Assembly: GCA_947457195.1 (NCBI GenBank)
Contig: CANGUU010000008.1
Coordinates: 1-64,000 of the forward strand
DNA length: 64,000 bases
Direction of reading: 5' to 3'
Source of the DNA: Gammaproteobacteria bacterium
Lineage (GTDB): Bacteria > Pseudomonadota > Gammaproteobacteria > Pseudomonadales > Pseudohongiellaceae
Shown here: positions 34,469-50,305 of the stretch, one piece after another
How positions within the stretch are numbered: position 1 is the first letter of the stretch
How the letters are laid out: every line of letters begins with the position of its first letter
Notes under the pieces: model-generated
What the model was told of the DNA's origin: nothing
Seen by the model: the letters and a program-made list of their open reading frames with translations, nothing else
Databases searched by the model: none
Made by a program: the position numbers and the translations under genes

Positions 34469-36718
34469 ATGGCAGGTGCGGGCCAGGTCGCGGCGGGGGT
34501 GCTGGTACTGCTGAGCGCCGCCGCAGCGGCCGGCGCCGCAGAACTGCCGGGCACCCGCGACAAGAGCATCGTAGTCCCCAAGTTGGCCGGCGAGCTGCAT
34601 ATCGATGGTGTGCTCGACGAGCCGCAGTGGGCCGAGGCGCTGGTGGTGGAGGACCTCCACCAATACCAACCTTACGAGTACAGCGCGCCTTCGCAGCAGT
34701 CCGTCGTGCGCCTTTTTTATACCGAGGAGGCGCTGTACGTGGCGGCCTTTTTCGAGGAGACCGATCCTTCGCTGATCTCGGCGAGCGTGCTGCGCCAGGG
34801 CGAAAGCCTGGTGGCCGACGACATCTTCTCCGTGATCCTCGATCCCTATCTCGATCGCCGTAACGGCTACCGCTTCACGGTCAATCCCAACGGCGTGCGC
34901 TGGGAGGGCCTGTACCAGAACATCACCGATATCCAGGGCAACTGGGATGGTATCTGGCAGGCCGACGCGCGCGTGGTGGCAAACGGCTGGTACTCCGAGC
35001 TGCGCATCCCGTTCCAGACCATTTCCTTCAATCCGGCCTCCGATGCCTGGGGCATCAATTTCCGCCGCGAAATCCGCCGCAGCAACGAAGGCATCGGCTG
35101 GGTCACCCGCAACCGCCAGCTCAATCCCAGCATCGCCGGCACCATGCGCGGGCTGTCCGGGCTGCAGCAGGGGCTCGGGCTCGATATCGTGCCGTCGATG
35201 ACGCTGCGCGAAAACCGGCGCTATGGCGCGGTGGCCGCTGCCAGTCGAGACTACGAGCCCTCGGTGGACCTGTTTTACAAGCTCACCCCGCAGCTCAATG
35301 CCTCGCTGACCGTGAACACGGATTTTTCGGCGGTCGAGGTCGATAACCGTCAGGTCAATCTCACCCGCTTCAGCCTGTTCTTTCCAGAGCGCCGCGACTT
35401 TTTCGTGCGGGAGGCCGACATCTTCGAGTTCGGTCAGATCGGTGGCGGGCAGAGCGAAGAAACCGGTGGCGCCAATCCGGCGGTGCCGAGTGCCAATGCA
35501 CAGAACGGCCGCCCGTTTTTTTCGCGGCGCATCGGCCTCAACAGTCGCGGCGGGCCAGTGGGCATCGACTACGGCGCCAAGCTCAGCGGCCGCATCGGCG
35601 ACTGGAACGTCGGGACCTTGCTGGTGAGTCAGGAAGCCGATGCGGCCACCGGTGTCGGCCAGCGCGACGTCGCCGTCGGCAGGGCCGTGCTCAATGTGTT
35701 GAGCGAATCACAGATCGGCGTGATTGCCACCCGGGGTGCCCCGCAGTCCAACGAGGACTCGACGCTCGGTGGCATCGATTTTCGCTACCGCAATTCGCGG
35801 CTGCCCGGCGGCCGGGCACTGCAGGCTTTCGCGTACTACCAGGAAAGCCAGTCGGCCCGTGTCGAAGGGGAGGGCGCGGCCTACGGCGTCGGTCTGAGCT
35901 TTCCCAACAACGAAGGCTGGCGCGGGGCCTACGTCTACAAGGCCATCGGGCGCCACTTCAGTCCTGCACTCGGCTACGTGAACCAGACGGACATGAACGA
36001 CCATGCCCTCGATTTCGGATACCGGCACTTCCTCGCGCCGGGGCGCTGGTTTCGCTCGGTCTACACGGCCTTCGACGGCTATCGGGCCGAATACCTCGAC
36101 GATGGCTCGGTGAACAGCCAGAACCTCGGGCTGCGCGTCAGCGCCAACAACAACAGCGGCGACAATCTGTTCGCCCGGCTGATGACCAATCAGGAAGTGC
36201 TGCGAGATCCCTTTGTCATTTACCGCGCGGCGGATGCCTCCCGCCAGGTGAGCCTGGCACCCGGGGTCTATCACTTCGACGAGGGTATGCTCGGGCTGGA
36301 ATTGGCCGATCAGCGCCTCGTCAGTGGCCGCCTCACCACGCGCTGGGGCCAGTATTTCGACGGCACGCGCTGGCAGCAGAATGCCGATCTCGTCATCCGG
36401 CCCAACCGCCATCTCGGCCTTGGGGTCCAGTACACGCAAAACCGTATCGCCCTGCCTGCCGGCGACTTCACCACCCGCCTGTTCGGTCTGCAGACGCGCA
36501 TCGCCTTCACCAACACGCTGTCGTGGAGCACGCTGCTGCAGTACGACAACGTGTCTGAACTCATGGGCGTCAACAGTCGCCTGCACTGGATACCGGAAGC
36601 CGGTAAACAGATCTTCGTCGTGCTCAATTACGGACTCGCCGATCCCGACCGCGACAACCGTTTCCAGTCGGTCTCGGCAGATCTCTCGATGAGGGTGAAT
36701 TACACGCTGCGTTATTGA
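34469..36718 (+). CDS. DUF5916 outer-membrane barrel with CBM9-like N-terminus (second copy)
   Basis: 749 residues; GGAG ten bases before the ATG. Signal peptide about 1-24. CBM9-like domain about 40-200 (LHIDGVLDEPQWAEAL, VVRLFYTEEALYVAAFFEE, DDIFSVILDPYLDRRNGYRF). The DUF5916 barrel follows with VNTDFSAVEVDNRQVNLTRF and FFPERRDFFVREADIFEFG; it ends MRVNYTLRY. It shares the whole plan with the protein at 6541 but is only distantly similar. It is the second gene of a two-gene operon with the M20D enzyme. Possible roles are a channel or surface binding platform for peptides. Confidence 0.85.
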   Translation: MAGAGQVAAGVLVLLSAAAAAGAAELPGTRDKSIVVPKLAGELHIDGVLDEPQWAEALVVEDLHQYQPYEYSAPSQQSVVRLFYTEEALYVAAFFEETDPSLISASVLRQGESLVADDIFSVILDPYLDRRNGYRFTVNPNGVRWEGLYQNITDIQGNWDGIWQADARVVANGWYSELRIPFQTISFNPASDAWGINFRREIRRSNEGIGWVTRNRQLNPSIAGTMRGLSGLQQGLGLDIVPSMTLRENRRYGAVAAASRDYEPSVDLFYKLTPQLNASLTVNTDFSAVEVDNRQVNLTRFSLFFPERRDFFVREADIFEFGQIGGGQSEETGGANPAVPSANAQNGRPFFSRRIGLNSRGGPVGIDYGAKLSGRIGDWNVGTLLVSQEADAATGVGQRDVAVGRAVLNVLSESQIGVIATRGAPQSNEDSTLGGIDFRYRNSRLPGGRALQAFAYYQESQSARVEGEGAAYGVGLSFPNNEGWRGAYVYKAIGRHFSPALGYVNQTDMNDHALDFGYRHFLAPGRWFRSVYTAFDGYRAEYLDDGSVNSQNLGLRVSANNNSGDNLFARLMTNQEVLRDPFVIYRAADASRQVSLAPGVYHFDEGMLGLELADQRLVSGRLTTRWGQYFDGTRWQQNADLVIRPNRHLGLGVQYTQNRIALPAGDFTTRLFGLQTRIAFTNTLSWSTLLQYDNVSELMGVNSRLHWIPEAGKQIFVVLNYGLADPDRDNRFQSVSADLSMRVNYTLRY

Positions 36719-38345: not shown

Positions 38346-39299
38346 TCAAGGCGGGCTGGCGAGCAGCGGCCCGCCCCGGCGTCCTGCCTGGTCCACCCAC
38401 AGGTGGGGCAGGCCGAGGGAATCGAGCCAGGCCTTGCCCGCCTCGCCTTTTAGCATGGCGATCGTGGCCGCACTGCCCGCGACCACGCAGAAGTCCGCCA
38501 CCACGCTCACCGCCACCAGGCCCTGCACCGGCCAGCCACTGCGCGGATTGAGGATATGGCCGTAGCGCACGCCGTCGATCACCATGCAGCGCTGGTAGTC
38601 ACCGCTGCTGGCCAGTCCGCCGCCCCGCTGCGCCACGCTGGCGAGTGCTGCCTCCGGCCGCGCCGGGTCGCTGATACCGACTTGCCAGGCACTGCCGTCG
38701 GGCTGGCCACCCACGAAGCGCAGATCACCGCCGAGGTTGATCAGGGCGTGTCCCACGCCTTGCTGCTGGCAGAGCGAGGCGGCCCGGTCGGCCGCGTATT
38801 CCTTCACCACACCGCCGAGGTCCAGCTCCATGCCAGCCAACGGAAAACCAAGGCGGGGGCGCTGCCAGTCGACGTGCTGCCAGCCTGTGCGGGCGAGGAG
38901 TGACTGCAACTGCGCCGGGTCGGGCAGGCGACCCGACTTGAAGTCCCAGGCGCGCCGCAGGATGCCGGAGCTGATGTCGAACAGTCCCTCGCTCTCGGCG
39001 TGGCAGGTGGTGGCGTAGTCGAGCAGCGTGGCGGTCTCGTCGTCGACATGCACCGTGCCGCCGGCGGCGGCCACGCGGTTGATGGCCGACAGCTCGCTGC
39101 TGGCGCGGTAGCGCGAGTACTTGGCCTCGAGACGCTCGACATCAGCCTGCACGGCCGCTGCACACGCATTGGCCTTGGCCGCGGTGGCCGCATACAGCCG
39201 CAGCTCGCAGCGGGTGCCCATGGCGTGGAAGGGGAAGTCGAAGCGCTGCACGGGGGGCCGCAGGTCAGTGGAAAAACGGGCAGAGTAGCGGTTGTTCAC
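38346..39299 (-). CDS. apbE: FAD:protein FMN transferase, ApbE family
   Basis: 317 residues, GTG start at 39299 (start uncertain, no strong ribosome site). ApbE attaches FMN from FAD to Ser/Thr of target proteins. Visible: FHAMGTRCEL, ISSGILRRAWDFKSG, MELDLGGVVKEYAADRAA (FAD site), LINLGGDLRFVGG, HILNPRSGWPV. The metal loop reads VVADFCVVAGSAATIAMLKG, which differs from the usual ADALSTA by an inserted-looking AGSAAT. No signal peptide or lipobox is visible from this start, which is a puzzle if its target is exported. It is the last gene of the DUF4266/DUF3570 cluster, 92 bases after the DUF3570 stop. Confidence 0.88.
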   Translation of the reverse strand: MNNRYSARFSTDLRPPVQRFDFPFHAMGTRCELRLYAATAAKANACAAAVQADVERLEAKYSRYRASSELSAINRVAAAGGTVHVDDETATLLDYATTCHAESEGLFDISSGILRRAWDFKSGRLPDPAQLQSLLARTGWQHVDWQRPRLGFPLAGMELDLGGVVKEYAADRAASLCQQQGVGHALINLGGDLRFVGGQPDGSAWQVGISDPARPEAALASVAQRGGGLASSGDYQRCMVIDGVRYGHILNPRSGWPVQGLVAVSVVADFCVVAGSAATIAMLKGEAGKAWLDSLGLPHLWVDQAGRRGGPLLASPP

Positions 39300-39391
39300 G
39301 CACGCCCGGCATTCGCCGCCGCGCGTCGGGAGTATCGACGCAGAGTCGCCGGCAATTCAACCGCGGGCCGCGCTGGCGCTGCCAGTCGACC

Positions 39392-41773
39392 CTACAGGGG
39401 CAGCTGCCAGCTCAGCCAGAGCTGGCCGCCGGCCATGGGCCCCATCGGCGTTTCGACCCGATTGCTGGCGACGCGCTCGAGCCACTCCAGCGACACCGGC
39501 AGCGAAAACACCGAGCCGGCCACGCCAAGCGCCACGGCAGTTTCCTGCCGTGTGCCGATGCCGCTGAAGGACGCCTCGTTGTGTAGCACGCGCAGCGACA
39601 GGCGGGTGGCGGCCGTCAGCGGATAACTCAGCCAGGCGCTCTGCTCCAGGCTGCGGGTGGGATCGGTATCGGTCGCTGGCTGGCTTTCCAGCGCCGCACT
39701 GGCGGCGAGACGCAGGCCCCAGCGCCAGCCGCTGGCGGTGGTGGAATACTGCAGCGAGGGTAGCAGGTCGGTGGCGGCGGCACGGCGGCTCGGCAGTCCG
39801 AGTCCGGCGGTGAGCTGCCACAGGCCGCCGTCTGTGGGTCGATGCCAGAGAGCCGCCACTACCGTGTCGGCATAGGCGCTGGCCGGCACGTAGCTGCTGC
39901 CACCGGCGTGCACGTGCGGCGTACCGGCATGGTCCATGGTCATGAACTGGGGCATCAGCATCAGGCTGAAGCGCTCGCTGTGGTGGTAGACGACGTCGAG
40001 CATGTGCATGGTCATCTGCCCCTGCTGCTGCAGGCGATAGCCTCCCATCCAACTGCCGGCGCTGCCCGGTGTATGGGCGTACATCACTCCGGCCGGGGCG
40101 GCGTCGTGCGTCGGGGCGCCATGCTCGTGGGTAGCTGACGAGCCGGTCTTGTGGCCGGCGCCGCGCGGGCTGCCGGCGAGATCGAGGGTGAGCGACAGGC
40201 TGGCCAGCGAGTAGCTGAAATCGGCGTAGCTACTGTCACCGCGACCGTTGAACTGCAGGTCGCTTGCCCGCCAGTAGCGATCGAAGGCGGCTTCCAGCAG
40301 CAGACCGGCGCCGAGGCGTCGCTGCACGGTCAGCCCCGCGCTCTGTACCCCGTAGCCCGCCAAGCGGGGATCACTGGAAAACTGCGCCGGCAGCAGTGCC
40401 GGCGCGAAGTCCCGGAACTGCGGTGTGAGATCGAGCAGGGCCGGATCGCGCTCGCGACCTGCGGTGTCGAGGTAGCGCCCGTCGCTGCTGCGGAAGAAGC
40501 GCTGCGCAGGATCGCGGGCATCGAGCCAGATTTCGCGACCGCTCTCGTCGCGCGCAAAACTGCGGAACCGCTGCCGGCTCACCAGCACGTCGCGGTGGAA
40601 CCAGGCCGCCTGCTGGCTGTACCGGCGCAGGCGCGGCGCCAGCAGCCAGTCGCCCCACGGCTGCAGCCACTGCAGTTCCAGCGCGTGCGATTCGACGTCC
40701 CAGCTGTCGCGGCTGTAGTCGTAGTCGATGTGCAGCGACGCATCGGCCGCTCCCACATGCTGCACGTAGTGCAGGCTGGCGCTGCGGCCACGGCGGTGGT
40801 CCGGGCGTTGCTCGAGCAGTGCGCGCACGTCACCGGTCAGCGGGCCGCCGGCGGCCGCCTGTATCGGATCCACGAAAAGGACGCTCATGGCGCGGTAGGG
40901 GTTTTCCAGCAGTCCGCCTTCATCGTTCAGCGACACGCCGATGTCGAGCAGGGCGCGACGGTTCAGCACCTGGGTCAGGGCGAAATCGAGTGCGCGTGCA
41001 CGCCGCTTGCCGCGCAGCGTCACAGCGCCTGCCTCGCGTTCGATGCTGTGCCGGAAGGCGCTGGTGGTCACATAGGCCAGCCAGTCACCGTCGAGCCGGG
41101 CCGCGACGGCGTCGTCGCTGACGTGTGCTGCGACTGCCAGCGTAGTGCGTTGCTGGTTGAAGTCGATCGTGCTGCCGACATCAAGCCGTCGGGAGCGGTA
41201 GTCCGGCTCAGTCGAATAGCCGAGACCCAGCGAAGGTCGCCAGCGTCCCGTGGTGGCGCCAAGCGCCAAGGTGGCCTCGCGTCGCACCTCGGGGGATGCT
41301 GAGGAAAGCACCAGTTCTGCTGCGTCGAGCGGCACGAGTTCGCCTTGGCTGCTGTCGACCAGCGGCCTGAGGTCGGCATCGAGCGGCAGACGGCCGTTGA
41401 TGAGCGGCGAGGCACCCGACAGCACGGTGCGGTCACCCACCTGCTGCAGCTGCGCGCGGTTGCCGCCAAAGGCCACCGGCGCCACGGTGACCGGTGTGGC
41501 GCCGGACCAGCTGTCCTGGTTCAGTGTCAGCGCTCCCTGCAGTCCGCGCGGCAAGGCGCCTTCCGCGCGAGCCGACAGCGACCAGGCCGTGAGCGGTGCG
41601 GGCTGCAACCCGGACGCCGTGCGGCGCCGACCTTCCTGATAGTGGGCACTCTGCACGCTAAGCCCGGGGCTCGCGGTCTGCGCAGCGGCCGACTGCACAC
41701 CCGGCAGCAGCAGCGCGGCGGCGGTCAGCGCCTGTAGGGCGCGCCGACGACCGGCCGCGTCAGTAGCAGCCAC
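39392..41773 (-). CDS. DUF3570 outer-membrane protein fused to a second barrel-like domain
   Basis: 793 residues if the GTG at 41773 is used: GGAGG lies six bases upstream, inside the DUF4266 gene, and the next residues form a signal peptide (RRRALQALTAAALLLPG, then SAAA). An ATG at 41824 is the alternative. Residues about 35-535 match DUF3570 (strand-rich, IDYDYSRDSWDVESHALE, QRFRSFARDESGREIW). A His-rich linker (541-556) leads to a second beta-rich domain of about 235 residues with clustered Met and His (GQMTMHMLDVVYHHSERF, MLMPQFMTMDHAGTPHVHAGG). That part resembles transporter-type barrels often found near copper genes. Such a fusion is unusual. SGAS at 119-122 is a possible FMN acceptor. 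Function unknown. Confidence 0.75.
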   Translation of the reverse strand: MAATDAAGRRRALQALTAAALLLPGVQSAAAQTASPGLSVQSAHYQEGRRRTASGLQPAPLTAWSLSARAEGALPRGLQGALTLNQDSWSGATPVTVAPVAFGGNRAQLQQVGDRTVLSGASPLINGRLPLDADLRPLVDSSQGELVPLDAAELVLSSASPEVRREATLALGATTGRWRPSLGLGYSTEPDYRSRRLDVGSTIDFNQQRTTLAVAAHVSDDAVAARLDGDWLAYVTTSAFRHSIEREAGAVTLRGKRRARALDFALTQVLNRRALLDIGVSLNDEGGLLENPYRAMSVLFVDPIQAAAGGPLTGDVRALLEQRPDHRRGRSASLHYVQHVGAADASLHIDYDYSRDSWDVESHALELQWLQPWGDWLLAPRLRRYSQQAAWFHRDVLVSRQRFRSFARDESGREIWLDARDPAQRFFRSSDGRYLDTAGRERDPALLDLTPQFRDFAPALLPAQFSSDPRLAGYGVQSAGLTVQRRLGAGLLLEAAFDRYWRASDLQFNGRGDSSYADFSYSLASLSLTLDLAGSPRGAGHKTGSSATHEHGAPTHDAAPAGVMYAHTPGSAGSWMGGYRLQQQGQMTMHMLDVVYHHSERFSLMLMPQFMTMDHAGTPHVHAGGSSYVPASAYADTVVAALWHRPTDGGLWQLTAGLGLPSRRAAATDLLPSLQYSTTASGWRWGLRLAASAALESQPATDTDPTRSLEQSAWLSYPLTAATRLSLRVLHNEASFSGIGTRQETAVALGVAGSVFSLPVSLEWLERVASNRVETPMGPMAGGQLWLSWQLPL

Positions 41774-41963
41774 AGCCGCCTCCGCCTGCACCTCCCGTCC
41801 CGCGGCCTGCTTCGCGGCTGTCACGCAGATGGCGGTCGCGCAGTGACTGCAGCGGCAGCGGATCCGTGGCCATGTGGGGTCGCGCGAGGATGTCGCGCTG
41901 CCAGGGCTCGACCTGCTGGCAGGCCGCCAGTGCGCACAGGCAGAGTATCAGCAGCCGTCTCAT
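41760..41963 (-). CDS. DUF4266 small lipoprotein with Gly-Cys tail
   Basis: 67 residues. Lipobox-like CALAAC after a short hydrophobic segment, conserved WQRDILARPHM, then HLRDSREAGRGTGG and the tail GGGGCGCY. DUF4266 proteins are about this size, and the SREA-Gly-rich-CGC ending is their hallmark. The Cys pair at the very end could bind a metal or cofactor or be a processing site. The start overlaps the stop of the upstream gene (ATGA), and its end overlaps the DUF3570 start. The four genes 42400-39392 are therefore tightly coupled. Confidence 0.8.
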   Translation of the reverse strand: MRRLLILCLCALAACQQVEPWQRDILARPHMATDPLPLQSLRDRHLRDSREAGRGTGGAGGGGCGCY

Positions 41964-42412
41964 TTGAACTGGTCGACCACGATGTCGGTGCCGGTGTGGT
42001 CACTGGCAGTGGTGAGGCAGTGGTAATCGATATCGAATTGGCGTGCCCCGGCTGCCGTCTTGCCGACCAACACGGTGTATACGCCCGCACCGCCAGGTAG
42101 CTGCAGCGCCTCGCTGTAAAGTGCATCGCCGGAATTGGTGTCGCTGATCCCCAGGGCCTGGGTGCCCTTGAGCACCTGCAGAGTCACCAGCAGACCGGCG
42201 ACCGGCGGCGAGTTGTCGCGTACCCGCACATAGAGCTGCGCCGGTGTGCCCGCGCCGTCATCGAAGCAGGTGATACGGGCAAGACCGAGGAAGCTCGCCC
42301 GGCTGCCGCCGGGGTCGAGCACGGCGCGGGCCGTGTGCGCGGCTACTGGTGCGGCGGCCAACAACATGGCACAGCCGAGCGGCAGCAGGAGACGCCGGCC
42401 TATTTCGGCCAT
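41960..42412 (-). CDS. Small exported protein with predicted N-terminal His
   Basis: 150 residues. Signal peptide MAEIGRRLLLPLG then AMLLAAAPVAA; predicted cleavage before His26 gives a mature protein starting HTARAVLDPGG. The rest looks like a small beta-sandwich (ITCFDDGAGTPAQLYVRVRD, GLLVTLQVLKG, YTVLVGKTAAG) with two Cys (ITCFDD, DYHCLTT) that could form a disulfide. I do not recognise a named family. The start overlaps the preceding gene by 13 bases and the stop overlaps DUF4266 by four, so it is one unit with them. An N-terminal His is a common copper ligand in exported proteins; binding here is inferred. Confidence 0.7.
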   Translation of the reverse strand: MAEIGRRLLLPLGCAMLLAAAPVAAHTARAVLDPGGSRASFLGLARITCFDDGAGTPAQLYVRVRDNSPPVAGLLVTLQVLKGTQALGISDTNSGDALYSEALQLPGGAGVYTVLVGKTAAGARQFDIDYHCLTTASDHTGTDIVVDQFK

Positions 42413-43194
42413 ATCTGCACCCCGTCGATGCGAATCGGCATATCGCGCTCGAGCTGGGCCTTCGATGGCCGCACCTCGACCGCCACGCCAGCCCCGTTGC
42501 AGCTGGCCGGCAGCGGGTTGGTACTGAGATTGCGGTTGATGGTGAGGCGGGCGGCGTTGTCGGCTTCCTTGCTGTCGTACAGCGAACCGAGCGTGTTGGA
42601 TGTCCAGAATTCGGCAATGCCGTCATTGTGGAGACGCGCCGCCGTGGAAATTTCGCAGACGTCCACGATGCTGGCCCGCAGTTGCACGCTGATGGCACAA
42701 GATGTGGGCGTGATGCGGGTGGCATTCACGCGGAATGGCAGGTAACCCACCATGTGGTTGGGCATGCCCGGACCGCCACCAGCCCAGAAGCCGACGACGT
42801 TGCCGTTGGCGTCGTTCTTTTCGTCGACAGTGGTAAACACGGCGCGGTCGATCAGCGGCTGGATGTTGGGGCCCCAGGTCGTGAGGAAGTCGGCAAGCCG
42901 GGCCGTGGTCGACACCTGCCCGCCCAACAGAATGGTGGAGTCCTTGCCGTCGGGGAACACCACCGAAGTACCGATCACGCTGGTGCCGGTGCCGCAGGCG
43001 TGGCCGATCTGCACGTTGTTCAGGACACGCACGCCTTCGTTCATGCTCGAGGTTTCAAAGGTGGTGTGCGCAGCCGCCATGCAGCTGAACAGCAGGCCGC
43101 CCACTAGCAGGCTGCTTAGCCGCAGCCTGAGCTGCCGCGAGACAGGATTGACCGAACCATGACGGTGCGGGACGGGCGTACTTGATCGGGACAT
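42400..43194 (-). CDS. Exported YcnI-like protein with predicted N-terminal His
   Basis: 264 residues from the ATG at 43194 (GGAG six bases upstream). Long basic n-region, then SSLLVGGLLFSCMAAA; cleavage before His43 gives mature HTTFETSS. The following GHACGTGTSVIGTSVVFPDG recalls the YcnI/DUF1775 pattern (H-x-C-x-G-s-x-T then V-x-P-x-G). In that family the N-terminal His is a copper ligand. Four Cys in the mature part could give two disulfides. I treat the YcnI relation as probable at fold level only. First gene of the five-gene leftward unit ending with apbE; a RegA-type site lies 64 bases upstream. Confidence 0.65.
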   Translation of the reverse strand: MSRSSTPVPHRHGSVNPVSRQLRLRLSSLLVGGLLFSCMAAAHTTFETSSMNEGVRVLNNVQIGHACGTGTSVIGTSVVFPDGKDSTILLGGQVSTTARLADFLTTWGPNIQPLIDRAVFTTVDEKNDANGNVVGFWAGGGPGMPNHMVGYLPFRVNATRITPTSCAISVQLRASIVDVCEISTAARLHNDGIAEFWTSNTLGSLYDSKEADNAARLTINRNLSTNPLPASCNGAGVAVEVRPSKAQLERDMPIRIDGVQIWPK

Positions 43195-43257
43195 GAGGGC
43201 TCCGGGCAGGGTTGAACACCGACCCGCATCATCGGCAGCGAGGTGACCGCCAACAAT

Positions 43258-43272
43258 GTGGCATTTTGTCGC
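43258..43272. promoter_or_regulatory. Candidate RegA/PrrA-type binding site
   Basis: GTGGC-ATTTT-GTCGC; on the minus strand GCGAC-N5-GCCAC. This resembles the inverted GCGNC / GNCGC half-sites I recall for RegA/PrrA regulators, with one mismatch. It lies between regA and the start of the YcnI-like gene, 64 bases upstream of the latter. Confidence 0.35.
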
Positions 43273-43350
43273 AGCCTGCTGGGCCGCTGCACCGGCCCTG
43301 GCGCTGGTACGTCGCTGTGCGCGGCTGGCCACCGCACCGTCTGCGACCAG

Positions 43351-43899
43351 CTACTGACGGACCGGGCGCTTCTGCAGCATGCGCTGCAGGGTGCGTCGGT
43401 GCATGCCGAGACTGCGGGCCGTGGCGGACACATTGCCGCCGTTCTCGAGCAGCACGCGCTGGATGTGTTCCCAGGCCAGGCGCCGGACCGACAGTGGCTG
43501 TACCTCGTCTTCCCCCAGCGCTGGCGCGGCCGTCTGTGCGCCGATCGCCAGCTTCTGCAGGATCTCGTCGGCATCCAGCGGCTTGCAGGCGTAGTCGAAG
43601 GCGCCGGCCTTGATGGCAGTGACAGCGGTCGCCACCGAGGCGTAGCCGGTGAGGATGAGAATCCGCATGGCGGGGTTGAGAGCCAGCAGCGGTGCAATGC
43701 AGTCCAGCCCACTTGCCTCGGCGATCTTGAGATCGACGATGGCGTAGTCCGGCGCCTGGGCACCCGTCACGCGCAGCAGAGTGGCCAGATCGTTGGCCGC
43801 CTTCACCTCGTGGCCGCGCCGCCGCAGGGCACGGGCCAGCACCTCGACGAATACCGGATCATCGTCGAGCACGGCGATACGGCAGCCGCCCTCAGCCAT
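43351..43899 (-). CDS. RegA/PrrA/RoxR-type response regulator
   Basis: 182 residues, the usual size. Receiver domain with acidic pocket LDDDP, phospho-acceptor Asp56 in YAIVDLKI, and switch residues LTGYASVATAV and KPLDADEI. The C-terminal Fis-type HTH (RLAWEHIQRVLLENGGNVSATARSLGMHRRTLQRML) is near-diagnostic for the RegA family. It pairs with the RegB-like kinase, whose gene overlaps it by eight bases. RegA proteins control respiration, cytochrome, nitrogen and carbon genes by redox state. The gene cluster directly downstream is the obvious local target. Confidence 0.92.
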   Translation of the reverse strand: MAEGGCRIAVLDDDPVFVEVLARALRRRGHEVKAANDLATLLRVTGAQAPDYAIVDLKIAEASGLDCIAPLLALNPAMRILILTGYASVATAVTAIKAGAFDYACKPLDADEILQKLAIGAQTAAPALGEDEVQPLSVRRLAWEHIQRVLLENGGNVSATARSLGMHRRTLQRMLQKRPVRQ

Positions 43900-45280
43900 C
43901 TTCGTACTCCAGTGGCAGCTCGATGACGGTCAGCGTACCGCGCGGGGTTTGCGGGTAGAGACTGACGCTGCCGCCGAGCCGGTTGAAGGTGGCCTGGCTC
44001 AGCACCAGCCCCACGCCGAGTCCGCCAGTTTTGCCGCTGATGATCGTGGTACCCAGTTGCTCCTGCAGTTCCCGCGGCACACCGGCGCCGAAGTCGCGGA
44101 CCTGCATGGTCCAGGCGCGTGGCTGCCAGCACACGTCGATCTCGATGCCTCCAGGACCGGCCTCGGCGGCGTTGTTGAGCAGATTGACCAGCGCCTGCTC
44201 CAGCGTGGCATCGACCCGCACCTTCGGCGCCGGCCCCGGCTGCACGGTGCTGCGGCAGGGGACCTCCGGGCGCAGCAGCTGCCAGTGCTGCAGCAACTCC
44301 TCGATGAAGGCCCGCAGGTCCAGCCGTCGCCAGCGGGCCTGCTTGAAGTCGGCCTTGCTCACCACGCCCTGCAGGGCGTCCCGGCACAGTGCCACCTGGG
44401 TTTGCAGCGTCTGCAGGTCACGGCCGAGTTCGCTGTCCCCCGCGTGATCGCGGCGCAGGTCAGTGAGCAGAACGGCCATGGTGCCGAGCGGGGTGCCCAG
44501 CGAGTGCGCAGTACCGGCGGCCTGGATCGCCACCGCCATGATCTGCTCGTTGCGCAGGGTTTCCTCGCGGAACCTTGCCAAGCGCTGCTCGCGCTGCCGC
44601 AGCTCTGCCGCGAGGCGGACAATGAAGAAGATGATGAGCGCGGCACTCACCGTGAAGTTGAACCACATCCCGAGGATGTGCAGGTTGGGCATGGTGCCGC
44701 TCTCGGCCAATGCCTGAGGATGGTCCGCGTGTGCCATGCTGTCGGCAGGCATGAGGGCGGGCAGGGGCTGGAAGTAGAAGAGCAGCAGGCTGTAGAAGAG
44801 CAGGGCAATGCCACCCAGCCCGAGCGCGTAGGCTGGCGGCAAGGCGATGGCGGCTATGGTGATCGGGACCAGAAGGTACGACACGAAGGGATTGTTGGCA
44901 CCCCCGGTGAAGTACAGCAGCAGCCCCAGCCCGAGTACATCCACCAGCAGATGCACGAACAGTTCTTGCTGTTTGGGGTGGGGTGCGAGTCGCAGGCGCA
45001 GCAACAGGCCGCCATTGACCAGTGCCAACAGCAGCAGCACGGCGAGCAGCAGCGGATAGTCCAGGGGCAGCGCCAGTGCATAGCGGGTGTAGGCAAGGGC
45101 CAGCAGCTGGAGTACCAGCACCAGTGCACGGATCAGCAGCAACCGGTAGAGGTTGGTTTGCAGCGGGTTGGCAGCAGGCAGTGGCACAGGATCGTCGGAG
45201 CCGTTCTGCCGCGCGGACGGGGTGCCCGCGGGCTTCGAGCTGCCATGGTAGCAAGCTGCCGCGCGAAGGGTCTGCGGCAT
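43892..45280 (-). CDS. RegB/PrrB/RoxS-type redox sensor kinase
   Basis: About 462 residues from the ATG at 45280; the start is uncertain (TTG at 45295, GTG at 45187 are options). Six membrane segments, with the quinone-binding heptad GGANNPF at 126-132. H-box AHSLGTPLGTM with His259. Cys299 in QVALCRDAL aligns with the redox-active Cys of RegB. HATPase boxes NLLNNAAEAG and DFGAGVP. RegB senses the ubiquinone pool and cysteine oxidation. The H-box reads H-S-L rather than the common H-E-L. It lies downstream of the porin with only a 23-base hairpin between them, so read-through is likely. Confidence 0.88.
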   Translation of the reverse strand: MPQTLRAAACYHGSSKPAGTPSARQNGSDDPVPLPAANPLQTNLYRLLLIRALVLVLQLLALAYTRYALALPLDYPLLLAVLLLLALVNGGLLLRLRLAPHPKQQELFVHLLVDVLGLGLLLYFTGGANNPFVSYLLVPITIAAIALPPAYALGLGGIALLFYSLLLFYFQPLPALMPADSMAHADHPQALAESGTMPNLHILGMWFNFTVSAALIIFFIVRLAAELRQREQRLARFREETLRNEQIMAVAIQAAGTAHSLGTPLGTMAVLLTDLRRDHAGDSELGRDLQTLQTQVALCRDALQGVVSKADFKQARWRRLDLRAFIEELLQHWQLLRPEVPCRSTVQPGPAPKVRVDATLEQALVNLLNNAAEAGPGGIEIDVCWQPRAWTMQVRDFGAGVPRELQEQLGTTIISGKTGGLGVGLVLSQATFNRLGGSVSLYPQTPRGTLTVIELPLEYEDG

Positions 45281-45304: not shown

Positions 45305-46780
45305 TTACTGGTAATTGAACTGCAGCTGTAGACGCAAGGCGTCGGCTTCGAACTCGGCGTAGTCGGGTCGTCCGGCCCGGTTGCCGGTCACGAGATTGTT
45401 GCGCCGCATGCGGTGAAACACGGCGGCCAGCTCTACCTCGCGGGCGATCTGCCATTCGACGCCGATCTCGAGGTCGTTGACGCGGTTGACCGGGGCATTG
45501 GTCTCCGCCTTGTTGGCCCCATCGAAATACTGCCAACGCACGAAAGGCAGCACGGTGCCGAGTGCGGTCTTCGCCATGTACATGGCCTGCAGATAACCGC
45601 CGTCGAGGGATTGTTCGACAATGCTGTTACTGGCCAGGTCGAGGCCAGGCGTGGTGCCCCAGTTCCACTCCCCCTGCAGGCCGAAAGGCTGCGGATACAG
45701 CATGAAGCTCACACCGACGCGTTGGTCCTTGAGGCCGAACTCGTCGGCGGCAGCCACGGTCGGCGTGCGAGTCTGATTGCCGGCGCTTCGATAAGCGCCG
45801 AGCGTGGGTGCATACTCGCCGGTGTAGGCCTGCACGCCGGCCTCGAGATACTGGCCGCTGGCCAGCTTCCACGGGTACGTCAGGCGCGTCACCACGTGCT
45901 GGTTGTCGTTGCGGTCGGCTCGGTTGGCACCCTGCCCGTTATACAGTCCGAGCCCGAACATGCCGTAGTTGCCGCTGTGCTTGAGACCCGCAGTGTTGAT
46001 TTCGGCGAACAGCGCCTGGATGGCGACCGGGGTGTAGTAGTAGAACACCCCGAGATCGCGCTCGTCGCGCACTGCGCTGTTGAGCGAGTCGGCGCGGTCC
46101 AGCGCCAGACGGTTGGAGCTCGATTGCATGTTCTCGAAGCCATAGGGCACCTTCGACTGGCCCACACGCAGCCGGTGCACGCGGTCCTCCGTGAGGTAGA
46201 AGTCGCCGTAGGCGTCGCGCAGCTGCGCTACCTGGCCGGTAGTGCCGGCGCTGCTGGCAAGGTCGGGCTGGATGTAGAACGACAGGCGCTTGCCGATATC
46301 CCCCTGGATGATCACGCGGGCCCGGCGGATCAGATAGTTCTTGTCGGCATCGGCGAGGGAATTCTGATCACCGACCGACCGGTCGGCCCAGAGGTTGATG
46401 GCCTCGTCACCCCCAAGCATCTCGGTATAGCGGTTTTGCAGGTAGCCGCGTATCTGCATGTTCTGCGTCCAGCCGCTTTTGCTCTGCGCTGCCGTCAGCG
46501 TGGCGAGTTTTTCGTCCTGCTGGTCAACGCGCGTTTCGAGGGCGGCCACGGCCGGTATGCTGCTGGCGGTTGTCGTGTTTGCCGGGGCTGTCTCGGTGCT
46601 GGCCACCGGACGGAAGGTCCCGAGGCTGACCCTGCCGGGACCAGGCTCTGCGTACAGCTGGCGGGTGGTCGTGTCGAGATAGAGCTGCAGATCGCTTTCG
46701 GCGGCAACACCAGGGCGGGCCAGCAGCAGTGCCAGTGCGAGCAGGAGGGGACGACGAGGAAGCGAGAATGGCATCAGCAT
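45305..46780 (-). CDS. Phosphate-selective porin O/P family
   Basis: 491 residues. Signal peptide MLMPFSLPRRPLLLALALLLARPGVAA. A coiled-coil stretch at about 80-100 (AVAALETRVDQQDEKLATLTAAQ in pieces) precedes the barrel, as in OprP/OprO trimers. The barrel has GYLQNRYTEM, RRARVIIQGDIGKRLSFYIQPD, VGQSKVPYGFENMQSS and GVEWQIAREVELAAVFHRM, ending LQFNYQ. It passes phosphate or polyphosphate across the outer membrane. Pho-box-like repeats lie upstream and it is divergent from phoB, which supports phosphate control. regB-regA follow on the same strand after 24 bases. Confidence 0.85.
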   Translation of the reverse strand: MLMPFSLPRRPLLLALALLLARPGVAAESDLQLYLDTTTRQLYAEPGPGRVSLGTFRPVASTETAPANTTTASSIPAVAALETRVDQQDEKLATLTAAQSKSGWTQNMQIRGYLQNRYTEMLGGDEAINLWADRSVGDQNSLADADKNYLIRRARVIIQGDIGKRLSFYIQPDLASSAGTTGQVAQLRDAYGDFYLTEDRVHRLRVGQSKVPYGFENMQSSSNRLALDRADSLNSAVRDERDLGVFYYYTPVAIQALFAEINTAGLKHSGNYGMFGLGLYNGQGANRADRNDNQHVVTRLTYPWKLASGQYLEAGVQAYTGEYAPTLGAYRSAGNQTRTPTVAAADEFGLKDQRVGVSFMLYPQPFGLQGEWNWGTTPGLDLASNSIVEQSLDGGYLQAMYMAKTALGTVLPFVRWQYFDGANKAETNAPVNRVNDLEIGVEWQIAREVELAAVFHRMRRNNLVTGNRAGRPDYAEFEADALRLQLQFNYQ

Positions 46781-47045: not shown

Positions 47046-47094
47046 GCCGGGTGGTAGTGTTCTTTAGCAACAACGCACGTGTGGAGTGAGTCGC

Positions 47095-47787
47095 TTGAGC
47101 AAGCGCAAGATCATCATCATCGAAGATGAACCGGACATCCTGGAAGTCCTGAGCTACAACCTGCGGCGTGAAGGTTTCGAGATCATGAGCGCCACCGACG
47201 GCAACCAGGGCCTGGCGCTGGTAAAGCGCGAATTGCCCGATCTGGTGCTGCTCGACCTGATGTTGCCCGGCATGGATGGTGTGGAGCTTTGTACCAACAT
47301 CAAGAAGCATCCCCAGACCCAGCACACCCTGCTCATCATGGTCACCGCCAAGGGCGAGGAAAGCGACATCGTGCTCGGGCTTGGCGTGGGGGCAGACGAC
47401 TACGTGACCAAACCTTTCAGTCCCAAGGAACTGGTTGCGCGCGTGAAGGCAGTCCTGCGTCGCGGCATCCTGCTGGAAGCGCAGGCTCCCCAGGAAAAGA
47501 TCGTGCACGGCGACCTCGTGATCGACTCTGTGAAGTATCGGGTGACCTATGCCGGTCGTGAGGTCAAGTTAACGGCGACTGAGTTTCGCATACTCCAGTA
47601 CCTGGCCAGTCACCCCGGCCGCGTGTTCACCCGCGAACAGCTGCTCAATCATGCCCTTGGCGATGACGTGGTGGTGGTTGATCGCAACATCGACGTCCAC
47701 GTGCGCGGCATCCGCAAGAAGCTGGAGGTCGAGCCGCCGCTGATCGAAACCATCCGGGGAATCGGATATAGAATGGCCGAACTTTGA
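47095..47787 (+). CDS. phoB: PhoB, phosphate regulon response regulator
   Basis: 230 residues if the TTG at 47095 is the start: GGAGTGAG lies eight bases upstream and the protein begins MSKRKIIIIEDEPDIL. GTG at 47086 is the alternative but has no site. Phospho-acceptor Asp54 in VLLDLMLPGMDG; LVTAKGEE-type loop (VTAKGEESD), KPFSPKELVARVKAVLRR; OmpR-type winged helix with LTATEFRILQYLASHPGRVFTREQLLNH and DVHVRGIRKKLE, ending GIGYRMAEL. It activates phosphate-starvation genes by binding Pho boxes. phoR follows after 24 bases. Confidence 0.95.
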   Translation: MSKRKIIIIEDEPDILEVLSYNLRREGFEIMSATDGNQGLALVKRELPDLVLLDLMLPGMDGVELCTNIKKHPQTQHTLLIMVTAKGEESDIVLGLGVGADDYVTKPFSPKELVARVKAVLRRGILLEAQAPQEKIVHGDLVIDSVKYRVTYAGREVKLTATEFRILQYLASHPGRVFTREQLLNHALGDDVVVVDRNIDVHVRGIRKKLEVEPPLIETIRGIGYRMAEL

Positions 47788-47811
47788 TACAGGCGGGCCT
47801 CTCACTCCACC

Positions 47812-49182
47812 GTGAACGCGTTCAAGTCGGTCTTTTTCTGGCGCACGGCCATTGGGCACCTCGCCTTTGCCGTGATGGGGCTGTTCTTCGGGGCCAGCGT
47901 GTGGGTCCTGCCGCTCGCCCTGGTGTTGGCTGCCCTGTTGGCTTTTCGCCGTCAGAACGAGATGGAGCACCTGGCCCAGGTCACGGAAGCCATCGGCCAG
48001 GGCGATTTCGAACGGCGCGTACCTGAGCAGCACACGCCGGGAATGAAGCGCCTCGCGGATGCTGTCAACCAGCTGGCACGTACCTCCGCCCGCCGTGTGT
48101 CGCTGCTGACGGCCGACCGCAACCGGCTTGCCACTATCTTTGCCGGCATGGTGGAGGGTGTGGTCGACGTCGACGAGAAGCAGAACATCATCCACATCAA
48201 CGATGCGGCAGCCGTGCTGCTCGATCTCACGCGGGATAGCAGCGCAGGCAAACCGGTCTGGCAGGAAATCCGCAACCAGAAAATCACCCAGGCCATCGAC
48301 GATGCCATTCGCAACCGCACGGTGATCAAGGCGCGCGTGGACTACCCGCGCCAGAGCGAGCAGCTGGTCATCGACATCTATGTGGCATCGCTGTCCGACG
48401 ACCAGGGCGAGCCGATCGGTGCCGTGCTGGTGCTGCACGACGTCACGGAGCTCAAGCATCTCGAACGCATCCGCACCGACTTCGTGGCCAACGCCTCCCA
48501 CGAGCTGAAGACGCCGATCACCGCCATCCGGGGCCTCGCCGAGACCATGGTGGGGGATCCAGAGGCCGAGCGTGACACCCTGCGGCAGTACATGGAGCGC
48601 ATCCACGCCCAGAGCCTGCGGCTTTCCAACCTGATCACCGACCTGATGACCATCTCGCGACTGGAAGCCGATCAGGGCACTGGCGACTTCACGCGCTTCA
48701 ATTTCTACGAGCTGGTGCGCCGCGAGGTCCGTGCCGCCGCCAGTGCCGTGGAGGCCAAGTTCCACCGTCTGGTGCTGGAGCCCTGGCCGACGCCGATCGA
48801 CATCTATGCCGATCGCCAGAACCTCAGTCAGCTGGTGAACAACCTCATCGACAACGCCATCAAGTACACTCCCGAAGGAGGGCAGATCAAGGTGCGGGTG
48901 CGTGCCGAGCAGGGCGAGGCCGTGTTGGAGGTGGAGGACAACGGTATCGGGATCAGCCCCCAGTACCAGGAGCGGGTCTTCGAGCGTTTCTACCGCATCG
49001 ACAAGGCCCGCTCCCAAAGCCTGGGCGGCACCGGTCTCGGCCTTTCCATCGTGCGCAACATTGCCGAGCGCCATCAGGGGCGGGTCGGGGTGATCAGCCA
49101 GCTGGGCCGCGGGTCGACCTTCACATTCCGCATGCCACTGGCCGAGCAGCCGGTGCTGGCGGTGGGCGAGAGCCAGTCCTGA
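47812..49182 (+). CDS. phoR: PhoR, phosphate regulon sensor kinase
   Basis: 456 residues, GTG start. Two membrane helices lie within 1-47 (TAIGHLAFAVMGLFFGASVWVLPLALVLAALLAF as two segments), with no large periplasmic loop, as in PhoR. HAMP-like stretch, PAS domain about 105-215, H-box NASHELKTPITAIRG with His230, then NLIDNAIKYTPEGG, DNGIGISPQYQERVFERFYR and GGTGLGLSIVRNI. It signals with PstSCAB-PhoU to phosphorylate or dephosphorylate PhoB. No strong ribosome site is visible, so translation may be coupled to phoB. Confidence 0.95.
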   Translation: MNAFKSVFFWRTAIGHLAFAVMGLFFGASVWVLPLALVLAALLAFRRQNEMEHLAQVTEAIGQGDFERRVPEQHTPGMKRLADAVNQLARTSARRVSLLTADRNRLATIFAGMVEGVVDVDEKQNIIHINDAAAVLLDLTRDSSAGKPVWQEIRNQKITQAIDDAIRNRTVIKARVDYPRQSEQLVIDIYVASLSDDQGEPIGAVLVLHDVTELKHLERIRTDFVANASHELKTPITAIRGLAETMVGDPEAERDTLRQYMERIHAQSLRLSNLITDLMTISRLEADQGTGDFTRFNFYELVRREVRAAASAVEAKFHRLVLEPWPTPIDIYADRQNLSQLVNNLIDNAIKYTPEGGQIKVRVRAEQGEAVLEVEDNGIGISPQYQERVFERFYRIDKARSQSLGGTGLGLSIVRNIAERHQGRVGVISQLGRGSTFTFRMPLAEQPVLAVGESQS

Positions 49183-49219
49183 GCCGCGCCAGCCCGACGG
49201 CGCTTGCAGGGAGGGGCGC

Positions 49220-49237
49220 CTTAACAATTGCTTTAAA
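49220..49237 (+). promoter_or_regulatory. Candidate Pho box 1 of pstS
   Basis: CTTAACA-ATTG-CTTTAAA, two 7-base units with an 11-base period. It lies just after phoR in an AT-rich segment and about 110 bases before the pstS start. Confidence 0.6.
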
Positions 49238-49248
49238 CCCTCGCCTAT

Positions 49249-49266
49249 CTTTATTTTTTCTTAACA
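49249..49266 (+). promoter_or_regulatory. Candidate Pho box 2 of pstS
   Basis: CTTTATT-TTTT-CTTAACA, again 7+4+7 with an 11-base period, about 80 bases before the pstS start. Tandem boxes before pstS are common and indicate strong PhoB activation. Confidence 0.6.
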
Positions 49267-49345
49267 GGTCGGCTTCAAAATTCGCCGGGCGCGGCCGCGA
49301 TTTCAGTAAGTAGCCGAACTAAATCAATATCTTATGGAGAACACG

Positions 49346-50305
49346 ATGATCGCTGCCACCCCCGCTACCCGATTGATCTCCCTGCTGGCCACAGCGATCC
49401 TGCTCGCTGCCTGCTCGGATGACAACAGTACCGCTGCCGCAGGCGACAGCAGCGACGCCACCGCTCTGACCGGCACCGTGCGCCTCGATGGTTCGAGCAC
49501 CGTGTTTCCGATCAGCGAGGCCATTGCGGAGGAATTCCAGATTCTCAACCAGGGTGTGCGTGTGACCGTCGGCTCCTCCGGGACCGGTGGCGGTTTCAGC
49601 AAGTTCATGGCCGGGGAAACCGACATCAATAATGCCTCTCGTGCAGTGAAGACCGAGGAGATCGCGCTCGGCACGGCCAAGGGGGTCGAATACCTAGAAC
49701 TTTCCGTGGCCTTCGACGGACTCTCCATCGTCGTCAATCCCGCCAATACCTGGGTGGATGCCCTCACCGTCGCCGAGCTCAAAAGCATCTGGGAGCCGGG
49801 CAGCACCGTCGACAGCTGGAACGATGTTCGTCCCGAGTGGCCGGACAAGCCCCTCCATCTCTACGGCCCGGGCACCGATTCCGGCACCTTCGACTACTTC
49901 ACCGAGGTCGTGGTCGGTTCCACCGGCGCCGCGCGCCCCGACTATACGGCCAGCGAAAACGACAACATCCTCGTGCAGGGTGTGGCGGGTGACGAAGGCG
50001 GCCTCGGGTTCTTCGGCTTTGCCTACTACGAGCACAGCGCCAGCCAGTTGAAGCTCATCCCGGTGGACGGCGGCAACGGACCGGTGGCGCCGACGGCCGA
50101 AACGATCAACAACGGCAGCTACAGCCCGCTGTCCCGCCCGCTGTTCATTTACGTCAGCAAGGCGTCGGCAGCGCGCCCGGAAGTGCGGGCCTTCGTCGAC
50201 TTCTACCTCGACAGCGCGCCGGCGCTCGTTACCGATGTGGGCTACATTCCACTGCCCGCCGACCAGTACGCGGCCGGCAAGTCCACCTTCGCTGCGTTCC
50301 ACTGA
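49346..50305 (+). CDS. pstS: PstS, periplasmic phosphate-binding lipoprotein
   Basis: 319 residues from the ATG at 49346. An in-frame ATG at 49334 is followed by GGAG that is ideally placed for the 49346 start. Lipobox LLAAC. Phosphate-site segments LDGSSTVFPISEAI, GSSGTGGGFSKFMAGETDINNASRAV and GTDSGTFDYFTE are all present. It delivers phosphate to PstCA. Two Pho-box-like repeats lie upstream. First gene of pstS-pstC-pstA-pstB-phoU. Confidence 0.95.
   Translation: MIAATPATRLISLLATAILLAACSDDNSTAAAGDSSDATALTGTVRLDGSSTVFPISEAIAEEFQILNQGVRVTVGSSGTGGGFSKFMAGETDINNASRAVKTEEIALGTAKGVEYLELSVAFDGLSIVVNPANTWVDALTVAELKSIWEPGSTVDSWNDVRPEWPDKPLHLYGPGTDSGTFDYFTEVVVGSTGAARPDYTASENDNILVQGVAGDEGGLGFFGFAYYEHSASQLKLIPVDGGNGPVAPTAETINNGSYSPLSRPLFIYVSKASAARPEVRAFVDFYLDSAPALVTDVGYIPLPADQYAAGKSTFAAFH

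Follow-up and report, generated by a model that had tools for sequence, protein, structure and literature searches.

The closest described systems to the one analysed here are the DUF3570-DUF4266-thioredoxin-ApbE clusters (DsbD-type) of Meheust et al. 2021. According to the excerpted text of PMC8238504, the DUF3570 protein of Chlorobium luteolum is flavinylated by its ApbE, the flavinylation ceased only once both of its [S/T]GA[S/T] motifs had been altered, and DUF3570 clusters often contain DUF4266, a thioredoxin-like gene and sometimes DsbD. The present analysis concerns a stretch of 64,000 nucleotides from a Gammaproteobacteria bacterium (contig CANGUU010000008.1, positions 1 to 64,000; hereafter the window) that carries a variant of such a cluster, in which genes for a RegB-like kinase and a RegA-like regulator are followed by those for two exported proteins, here called NH264 and NH150, a DUF4266 lipoprotein, a DUF3570 protein fused to a second predicted barrel, and the flavin transferase ApbE. 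The first-pass annotation of the window, made from its letters, had known of no assigned function for DUF4266 or DUF3570. This does not hold for DUF3570, whose role as a substrate of ApbE is published, and PMC8238504 was the only source naming DUF3570 or DUF4266 in our literature searches, all of which covered neither subscription papers nor supplements.

The window shares with the clusters of Meheust et al. a DUF3570 with two motifs, a DUF4266 with a CXC motif and an adjacent ApbE gene. It differs from them in that its DUF3570 is fused to a Met-rich barrel, in encoding two extra exported proteins, and in that the cluster of the window's lineage is without a thioredoxin gene, with no DsbD among the flanking genes scanned. 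New here are the predicted two-barrel form of the fused DUF3570, the kinship of NH264 to the copper protein YcnI, the recurrence of the set in Nitrosomonas, an ApbE without a signal peptide by hydropathy, and a RegBA linkage local to the genus, the DUF3570/DUF4266/ApbE core being already known. The chances appear about even that the genes specify a redox system of the cell envelope for handling a metal, with copper as the likeliest one.

Two predicted barrels and two flavin motifs in one protein

The DUF3570 domain (PF12094) was matched in the fused protein at 227.1 bits against a cut-off of 25, and the model of the whole protein (mean predicted local distance difference test score, pLDDT, 81.9) has two barrels in one chain. 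By strand counts taken from DSSP, with one broken strand joined and short loop strands omitted, barrel 1 is predicted to have 16 strands and barrel 2 to have 12. The strands of barrel 1 are joined on one side by short turns (2 to 4 residues) and on the other by loops whose length ranges from 2 to 86 residues. Fold matches (VIA) of barrel 1 included a BamA model (Z 21.6) and PelBC (Z 20.8), with scores of up to 21.6 over residues 20-517, while those of barrel 2 (VIA) included FapF (Z 21.2) and the COG4313 channel 4rl8 (Z 20.4, 212 residues aligned). In the model, a single polypeptide makes up both outer-membrane barrels, the first of them DUF3570 and the second COG4313-like, and a literature search for two-barrel outer-membrane proteins returned only unrelated work.

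Barrel 2 resembles 4rl8 in its 12-stranded barrel fold and differs in being placed behind another barrel, in being rich in Met and His, and in being missed by Pfam: PF13557 (Phenol_MetA_deg) gave no match for barrel 2 of the window, and Pfam finds no family in the C-terminal third of the protein. An unfused relative, L152, matches PF13557 at 36.3 bits against a cut-off of 22 and the barrel-2 profile at 3e-20, and the putative tie of barrel 2 to COG4313/Phenol_MetA_deg runs only through the modelled fold and this bridge. COG4313 has been implicated in the uptake of hydrophobic molecules (excerpted text of PMC4493636). The locus of the unfused relative (L152:1-2433, genome G391) holds the tail of an NH264, the Met-rich barrel of the Phenol_MetA_deg family, a small protein that carries the haem-like motif CGACH and has no Pfam match, and a thioredoxin-like gene, and the class-wide search gave no DUF3570 match in that genome. 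Because G391 has an unfused barrel beside an NH264 tail, the locus suggests that NH264 and the channel were a paired module before the channel was joined to DUF3570.

Richness in Met and His had been ascribed in the first-pass annotation to the barrel protein as a whole, a description that fits the linker and the C-terminal third (the second barrel) and not the entire chain. From the linker onward, 11 Met and six His columns are common to at least 37 of the 41 fused rows, and the window protein keeps eight of the former and four of the latter; the motif MxMHM is fixed in all 41 rows.

The window protein has the two flavin motifs, as SGAT at site 1 and SGAS at site 2. None of six unfused rows has GA[ST] at the place of site 2. 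Six unfused rows have one [ST]G[AS][ST] motif each, and three shorter unfused DUF3570 proteins have two. In the model, site 1 is at the top of strand 3 and site 2 is in the 52-residue loop that follows that strand. Both chain ends of known outer-membrane barrels face the periplasm, and if this applies to both ends of each barrel here, the strand count places the flavin sites on the outer side. We infer that they are at, or close to, the outer face of barrel 1. The published DUF3570 work and the two motifs lend support to the earlier expectation of a partner flavinylated by ApbE, with the DUF3570 part as the predicted target, and we regard a flavinylated outer-membrane barrel as highly probable.

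The ApbE of the window, one of three in its genome, appears to be leaderless. As judged from hydropathy, its N-terminal region is without a hydrophobic stretch (the best mean over 12 residues is 0.14), whereas the other two ApbEs reach 2.48 and 2.20. At 42 distinct related loci (44 rows, two of them duplicates), five ApbEs have an upstream in-frame stretch of at least 1.5, which by eye lies ahead of the likely start in each case, and at 21 distinct unfused DUF3570 loci two ApbEs reach 1.5.

Kinship of NH264 and recurrence of the gene set

Searches of Pfam, NCBIfam and PDB sequences gave no convincing family for the NH264 of the window. On profile and model evidence it is a distant homologue of YcnI, the copper protein of the DUF1775 family (YcnI/PcuD). 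According to the excerpted text of PMC8424229, YcnI binds Cu(II), and the majority of DUF1775 proteins without the full residue set of the monohistidine brace, which are mostly proteobacterial, retain the His and the Trp and not the Glu. We call NH264 a distant homologue and not a DUF1775 member because it does not reach the gathering score of PF07987 (DUF1775), which had no match at E up to 5 in the window protein or in five other NH264 proteins. A looser relative in G391 (L151), which matches NH264 at 2e-13, does pass PF07987 (30.1 bits against 25), and a relative in G229 (L153) stays under the cut-off (15.6 bits against 25).

The fold of NH264 was modelled as a read-through of two neighbouring genes of a relative, L045 (mean pLDDT 87.5). 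This model matched the W137F mutant of YcnI (8um6) with Z 11.9 and a root-mean-square deviation of 2.6 A over 127 of 128 residues, and wild-type YcnI (7me6) with Z 11.8, a Foldseek E of 1.4e-3 and a TM-score by target of 0.76. The match starts at residue 27 in each protein, which is the N-terminal His of both. With hhalign, NH264 matched a 13-row DUF1775 alignment at 95.6% (E 1.2e-8) over 62 N-terminal columns that include the signal peptide, compared with 2.1% for the control NH150, which likewise bears a signal peptide; the NH264 profile reached only 8.6% against one divergent DUF1775 protein. Among 398 genomes of the phylum, 15 matched NH264, 13 of them weakly, and the 12 weak matches fetched (G688 was excluded) were DUF1775-like by eye. 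All seven of these that were scanned pass the DUF1775 cut-off, and one match is fused to PCuAC. A search for the DUF1775 family itself matched one of 75 class genomes.

NH264 and YcnI/PcuD are alike in fold, in an N-terminal His past the signal peptide and in an HGC-like stretch (as described in the excerpted text of PMC8424229). NH264 has an invariant Trp, whose positional correspondence with that of YcnI is putative. It differs in having ~50 extra residues across the matched domain and a C-terminal extension, and no copC/copD or PCuAC was noticed by eye beside it. A mature N-terminal His was found by pattern in 97 of 99 NH264 proteins, the two without it being the C-terminal half of a natural fusion with NH150 (L049) and the remote protein L121. 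In all 46 aligned rows the N-terminal His, the Thr that follows it, four Cys (C40, C139, C153 and C205), one Pro and one Trp are invariant. The sets of 99 NH264 and 69 NH150 proteins exclude duplicate contigs, short or over-long pieces, matches with E above 1e-8, identical rows and the window proteins.

NH150 has no Pfam family, and its fold matches (VIA) are assorted beta-sandwiches (best Z 10.9) from which no function was drawn. Its mature N-terminus is His in 55 of 69 proteins (49 by pattern and six by eye) and Asp in the other 14, on which account we rejected NH150 as a copper ligand on the strength of its His alone. The earlier emphasis on N-terminal His in both exported proteins is accordingly retained for NH264 and given up as a requirement for NH150. 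In the fusion noted above (L049:2696-3802, genome G341), the two proteins are joined in one chain with NH150 first.

Across 369 genomes of the class, DUF3570 was found in 95 and an NH264 match in six. The DUF3570 frames of more than 850 amino acids among the matches listed came from G000, G266, G341 and G414, all of which have NH264; of the remaining two genomes, G391 has its match at a contig edge and G229 matches only marginally (E 9.6e-4). Within the 95, NH264 occurs with four of four fused DUF3570 proteins and in one of 91 other genomes (Fisher 1.6e-6, relatedness ignored), a count for which the weakest DUF3570 matches lie outside those listed and the NH264 profile (A1) included rows from three of the four fused genomes, only G266 being found without a row of its own. 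L049 and L051 had been found earlier using the window proteins alone.

A scan of contigs for NH264 yielded 68 loci, 53 on contigs titled Nitrosomonas and the rest in proteobacterial bins with other titles; it favours close relatives because its patterns were derived from NH264, and most of the loci are from one genus. At 53 of the 68, a number that equals the Nitrosomonas count by chance, a DUF3570 gene of the same orientation follows NH264 no more than 8 kb downstream, and these clusters have NH150 and DUF4266 in all 53, a second barrel in 49, a thioredoxin gene in 47 and ApbE in 38, the misses of ApbE being partly due to contig ends and one ApbE (L118) lying beyond 8 kb. The check proposed with the first-pass annotation, whether homologous clusters conserve the gene set, was thus answered in the affirmative for NH150, DUF4266 and DUF3570, with ApbE in most. 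Chance adjacency was rejected, as the identical gene order was found again in other genomes. The six clusters without thioredoxin (L061-L066, five of them on the same contigs as L041-L045) include none titled Nitrosomonas, and no other loci of the scan rank nearer to the window. At the other 15 loci, four contigs end too soon, three have NH264, NH150 and thioredoxin without a downstream DUF3570, and eight have NH264 followed by neither NH150 nor DUF3570. Of the three, L084 has a DUF3570 about 10 kb off on the opposite strand. Of the eight, L123 has an NH150 match some 8 kb upstream of NH264, and L117 and L119 have a thioredoxin-like match, which at L117 seems by eye to belong to a cytochrome c maturation cluster. 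L121 (L121:9929-14000) and L123 hold a solitary NH264 and a remote NH264-like protein, with, by eye, a pump of the resistance-nodulation-division (RND) type beside L121.

In the family of G414, NH264 was found in 79 of 125 genomes, all 79 belonging to one genus of 85 genomes, which was taken as Nitrosomonas; none of 40 genomes in the three other genera of that family has it. DUF3570 is present in 74 of the 85 Nitrosomonas genomes (in some as fragments), every one of which has NH264 (Fisher 1.1e-6), and six genomes have neither. No paper linking Nitrosomonas with flavinylation or ApbE was among the literature matches listed, and the search on Nitrosomonas copper acquisition and the outer membrane surfaced only methanotroph work.

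Metal handling and the alternatives to it

In the mechanism that we propose, the leaderless ApbE would attach two flavin mononucleotides to the DUF3570 part before or during export, and the fused protein would insert into the outer membrane, its single chain forming both barrels. The flavins of barrel 1 would receive periplasmic electrons through the CXC lipoprotein DUF4266, itself presumably fed by a thioredoxin-like protein that is encoded within the cluster in Nitrosomonas and elsewhere in the window's genome. The reduced flavin may then reduce the metal, which would cross the Met-rich barrel 2 and be handed to the periplasmic NH264 and NH150. Such a system would, like the porin-cytochrome conduit MtrCAB, be a barrel bearing redox cofactors across the outer membrane, and would differ from it in that covalent flavins and thiols replace multihaem cytochromes; no homology is claimed.

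The metal handling envisaged in the first-pass annotation gains support because NH264 is a distant homologue of the Cu(II) protein YcnI and barrel 2 has a conserved array of Met and His. We consider it fairly probable that a metal is the substrate of the system, and the case for copper as that metal to be evenly poised. Inward reductive transport is a doubtful component. The reading in full, in which a two-barrel polypeptide would combine a flavin reductase loaded by a cytosolic ApbE with a Met-lined Cu(I) channel and YcnI-like carriers for reductive copper uptake across the outer membrane, as a signature of Nitrosomonas shared by few gammaproteobacteria, is unlikely in its entirety.

Several points weigh against the copper reading or parts of it. 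The order of the mechanism is strained because YcnI binds Cu(II), whereas a Met-rich path suits Cu(I), and inspection by eye of five neighbourhoods, made from protein starts, brought no copper transporter or copper ATPase to notice. The enrichment in Met of barrel 2 (mean 5.7% against 0.7% in barrel 1 over the 41 fused rows) has barrel 1 as its baseline and not ordinary COG4313 channels, and the structural evidence consists of AlphaFold models read through the DSSP string and not from coordinates. Motif 2 starts with V or A, and not with S or T, in 30 of the 41 fused rows. NH264 occurs without NH150 or DUF3570 downstream, despite room for them, at eight of the 68 loci, and five of the 79 NH264-bearing Nitrosomonas genomes have no DUF3570 match. 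The clusters of the window and of six related gammaproteobacterial loci are without a thioredoxin gene. Finally, exported DUF4198 proteins with an N-terminal His bind nickel (excerpted text of PMC12537917).

The flavin barrel could alternatively reduce ferric iron at the surface, with the N-terminal-His proteins and barrel 2 in an iron or mixed-metal role. The excerpted text of PMC8238504 offers a precedent, in that 25 published DUF3570-type clusters contain the ferrous transporter VIT1 and its authors propose iron assimilation. However, no iron transporter was noticed in the five neighbourhoods read by eye, and the YcnI-like protein and the Met array point to a soft metal, and we hold reductive iron acquisition to be rather improbable. 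A soft metal need not be imported: periplasmic copper might be held in one redox state or sent out, which agrees with NH264 binding Cu(II) as YcnI does, as it would by analogy, and with the occurrence of Met-rich channels in copper efflux too. Such detoxification has a low probability in our estimation, with no copper ATPase or RND pump noticed by eye in the main clusters and an RND-type pump only beside the solitary NH264 of L121.

A system without any metal must also be weighed, in which DUF4266, thioredoxin and the flavin barrel would pass electrons to an external acceptor and NH264 and NH150 would be disulfide-bonded clients. The invariance of the four NH264 Cys and the thioredoxin gene in 47 of 53 clusters are what such thiol and electron transfer would lead one to expect, but it leaves both the N-terminal His of NH264 and the Met array of barrel 2 unexplained, and its likelihood appears slight.

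Cluster layout, regulators and significance

The features of the cluster are collected in Table 1. As the first-pass annotation had it, five leftward genes follow regB-regA and the first four of them overlap, NH264 with NH150 by 13 bases, NH150 with DUF4266 by 4 and DUF4266 with the fused gene by 14, all on the minus strand. There are gaps of 156 bases between regA and NH264 and of 92 bases ahead of apbE. An alternative start of the fused DUF3570 protein, GTG at 41824, would give 810 amino acids. The description of the DUF4266 product as a Cys-ending lipoprotein requires amendment, as its C-terminus is CGCY, a CXC motif in which Cys is not the terminal residue.

Table 1. Features of the cluster, with positions in the window.
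Feature	Position	Strand	Basis and remarks
RegB-like sensor kinase	43892..45280	-	NCBIfam match and GGANNPF; stop at 43892, start uncertain
RegA-like response regulator	43351..43899	-	NCBIfam ActR_PrrA_rreg; Pfam Response_reg and HTH_8
NH264, exported protein, mature N-terminus His (residue 43 by eye)	42400..43194	-	Distant DUF1775/YcnI homologue (profiles and model)
NH150, exported protein, predicted beta-sandwich	41960..42412	-	No Pfam family; mature N-terminus His in the window
DUF4266 lipoprotein, C-terminal CGCY	41760..41963	-	PF14086 2.4e-16; lipobox-like LAAC by eye
Fused DUF3570 and second barrel, 793 amino acids from inner GTG	39392..41773	-	PF12094 4.5e-67; two-barrel model
Predicted barrel 1 (DUF3570), 16 strands	40181..41665	-	DSSP of model; fold matches
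Predicted flavinylation site 1, SGAT	41495..41506	-	GA[ST] in 45/47 aligned rows
Predicted flavinylation site 2, SGAS	41408..41419	-	GA[ST] in 41/41 fused rows
His-rich linker joining the barrels	40052..40180	-	Mean 14.6% His, 41 fused rows
Predicted barrel 2, COG4313-like, 12 strands, Met-rich	39395..40051	-	Z 20.4 to 4rl8; conserved Met/His columns
ApbE flavin transferase	38346..39299	-	PF02424 2.7e-74; without signal peptide by hydropathy

The kinase reaches 193.9 bits with NCBIfam ActS_PrrB_HisK, below its cut-off of 350, and the regulator 171.1 bits with ActR_PrrA_rreg, below 250; we write RegB-like and RegA-like because these scores miss the equivalog cut-offs of RegB and RegA (PrrBA, ActSR). 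The kinase has GGANNPF, matching GGXXNPF, which we take to be the motif of RegB. The window and three of the four other loci of its genus (L041, L043 and, downstream, L044) have a RegA-like gene next to the cluster, and the fifth locus, L042, whose contig starts 1.4 kb upstream, has none adjacent. No RegA profile match at 1e-20 was obtained in L045, L049, L050, L051 or L065-L128. The motif GGXXNPF, by which alone the kinase was judged at other loci, was found in L041 and L044 as in the window; a search of 70 further loci did not find it (the contig of L043 begins inside the kinase gene). The 'RegA' matches beside Nitrosomonas clusters are on longer proteins, miss 1e-20 and were rejected as RegBA. 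Control by RegBA had been put forward as part of the system. Among the loci examined a RegA-like neighbour was found only in the window's genus, and as the linkage is confined to that genus we rejected RegBA as a core of the system; it is probably a local feature. In the same-genus genome of L044 the cluster is otherwise kept and is followed by RegBA-like genes, with ApbE reduced to a 55-residue remnant (L044:8951-9118).

No thioredoxin-like gene was matched on the window's contig, which is compatible with membership of a flavinylation system because the excerpted text of PMC8238504 lists that gene as frequent. The genome has a second, unfused DUF3570 beside DUF4266 and a thioredoxin-like gene. 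This classical thioredoxin-DUF4266-DUF3570 cluster (L048, G000:C6:17000-36000) has no adjacent ApbE, and its neighbours are a metallo-beta-lactamase-fold gene, PSD/PSCyt and DUF1552 genes and an FMN_red/flavodoxin-like gene.

Elsewhere in the window, an exported protein of 749 amino acids with a DUF5916 match, probably an outer-membrane barrel, is encoded 1.6 kb beyond the cluster (34469-36718, plus strand). Upstream of regB, a Porin O/P-like gene (45305-46780, minus strand) and the genes at 47086-50305 (plus strand), by eye a response regulator, a sensor kinase and a phosphate-type binding protein, look like a phosphate regulon.

If true, two outer-membrane barrels in one chain would interest specialists, and so would a leaderless ApbE whose substrate is exported. 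That DUF3570 carries flavin is proven, while its purpose is uncertain; the fused variant and its YcnI-like partner would provide a concrete guess at the substrate, namely copper, as well as a testable location of the flavins, facing outward on an outer-membrane barrel. The ammonia oxidisers of the genus Nitrosomonas depend on copper enzymes. Because it occurs in 74 of 85 genomes of that genus, with NH264 in none of the 40 genomes of the three other genera of its family, the proposed envelope redox system may bear on how Nitrosomonas acquires or controls copper.

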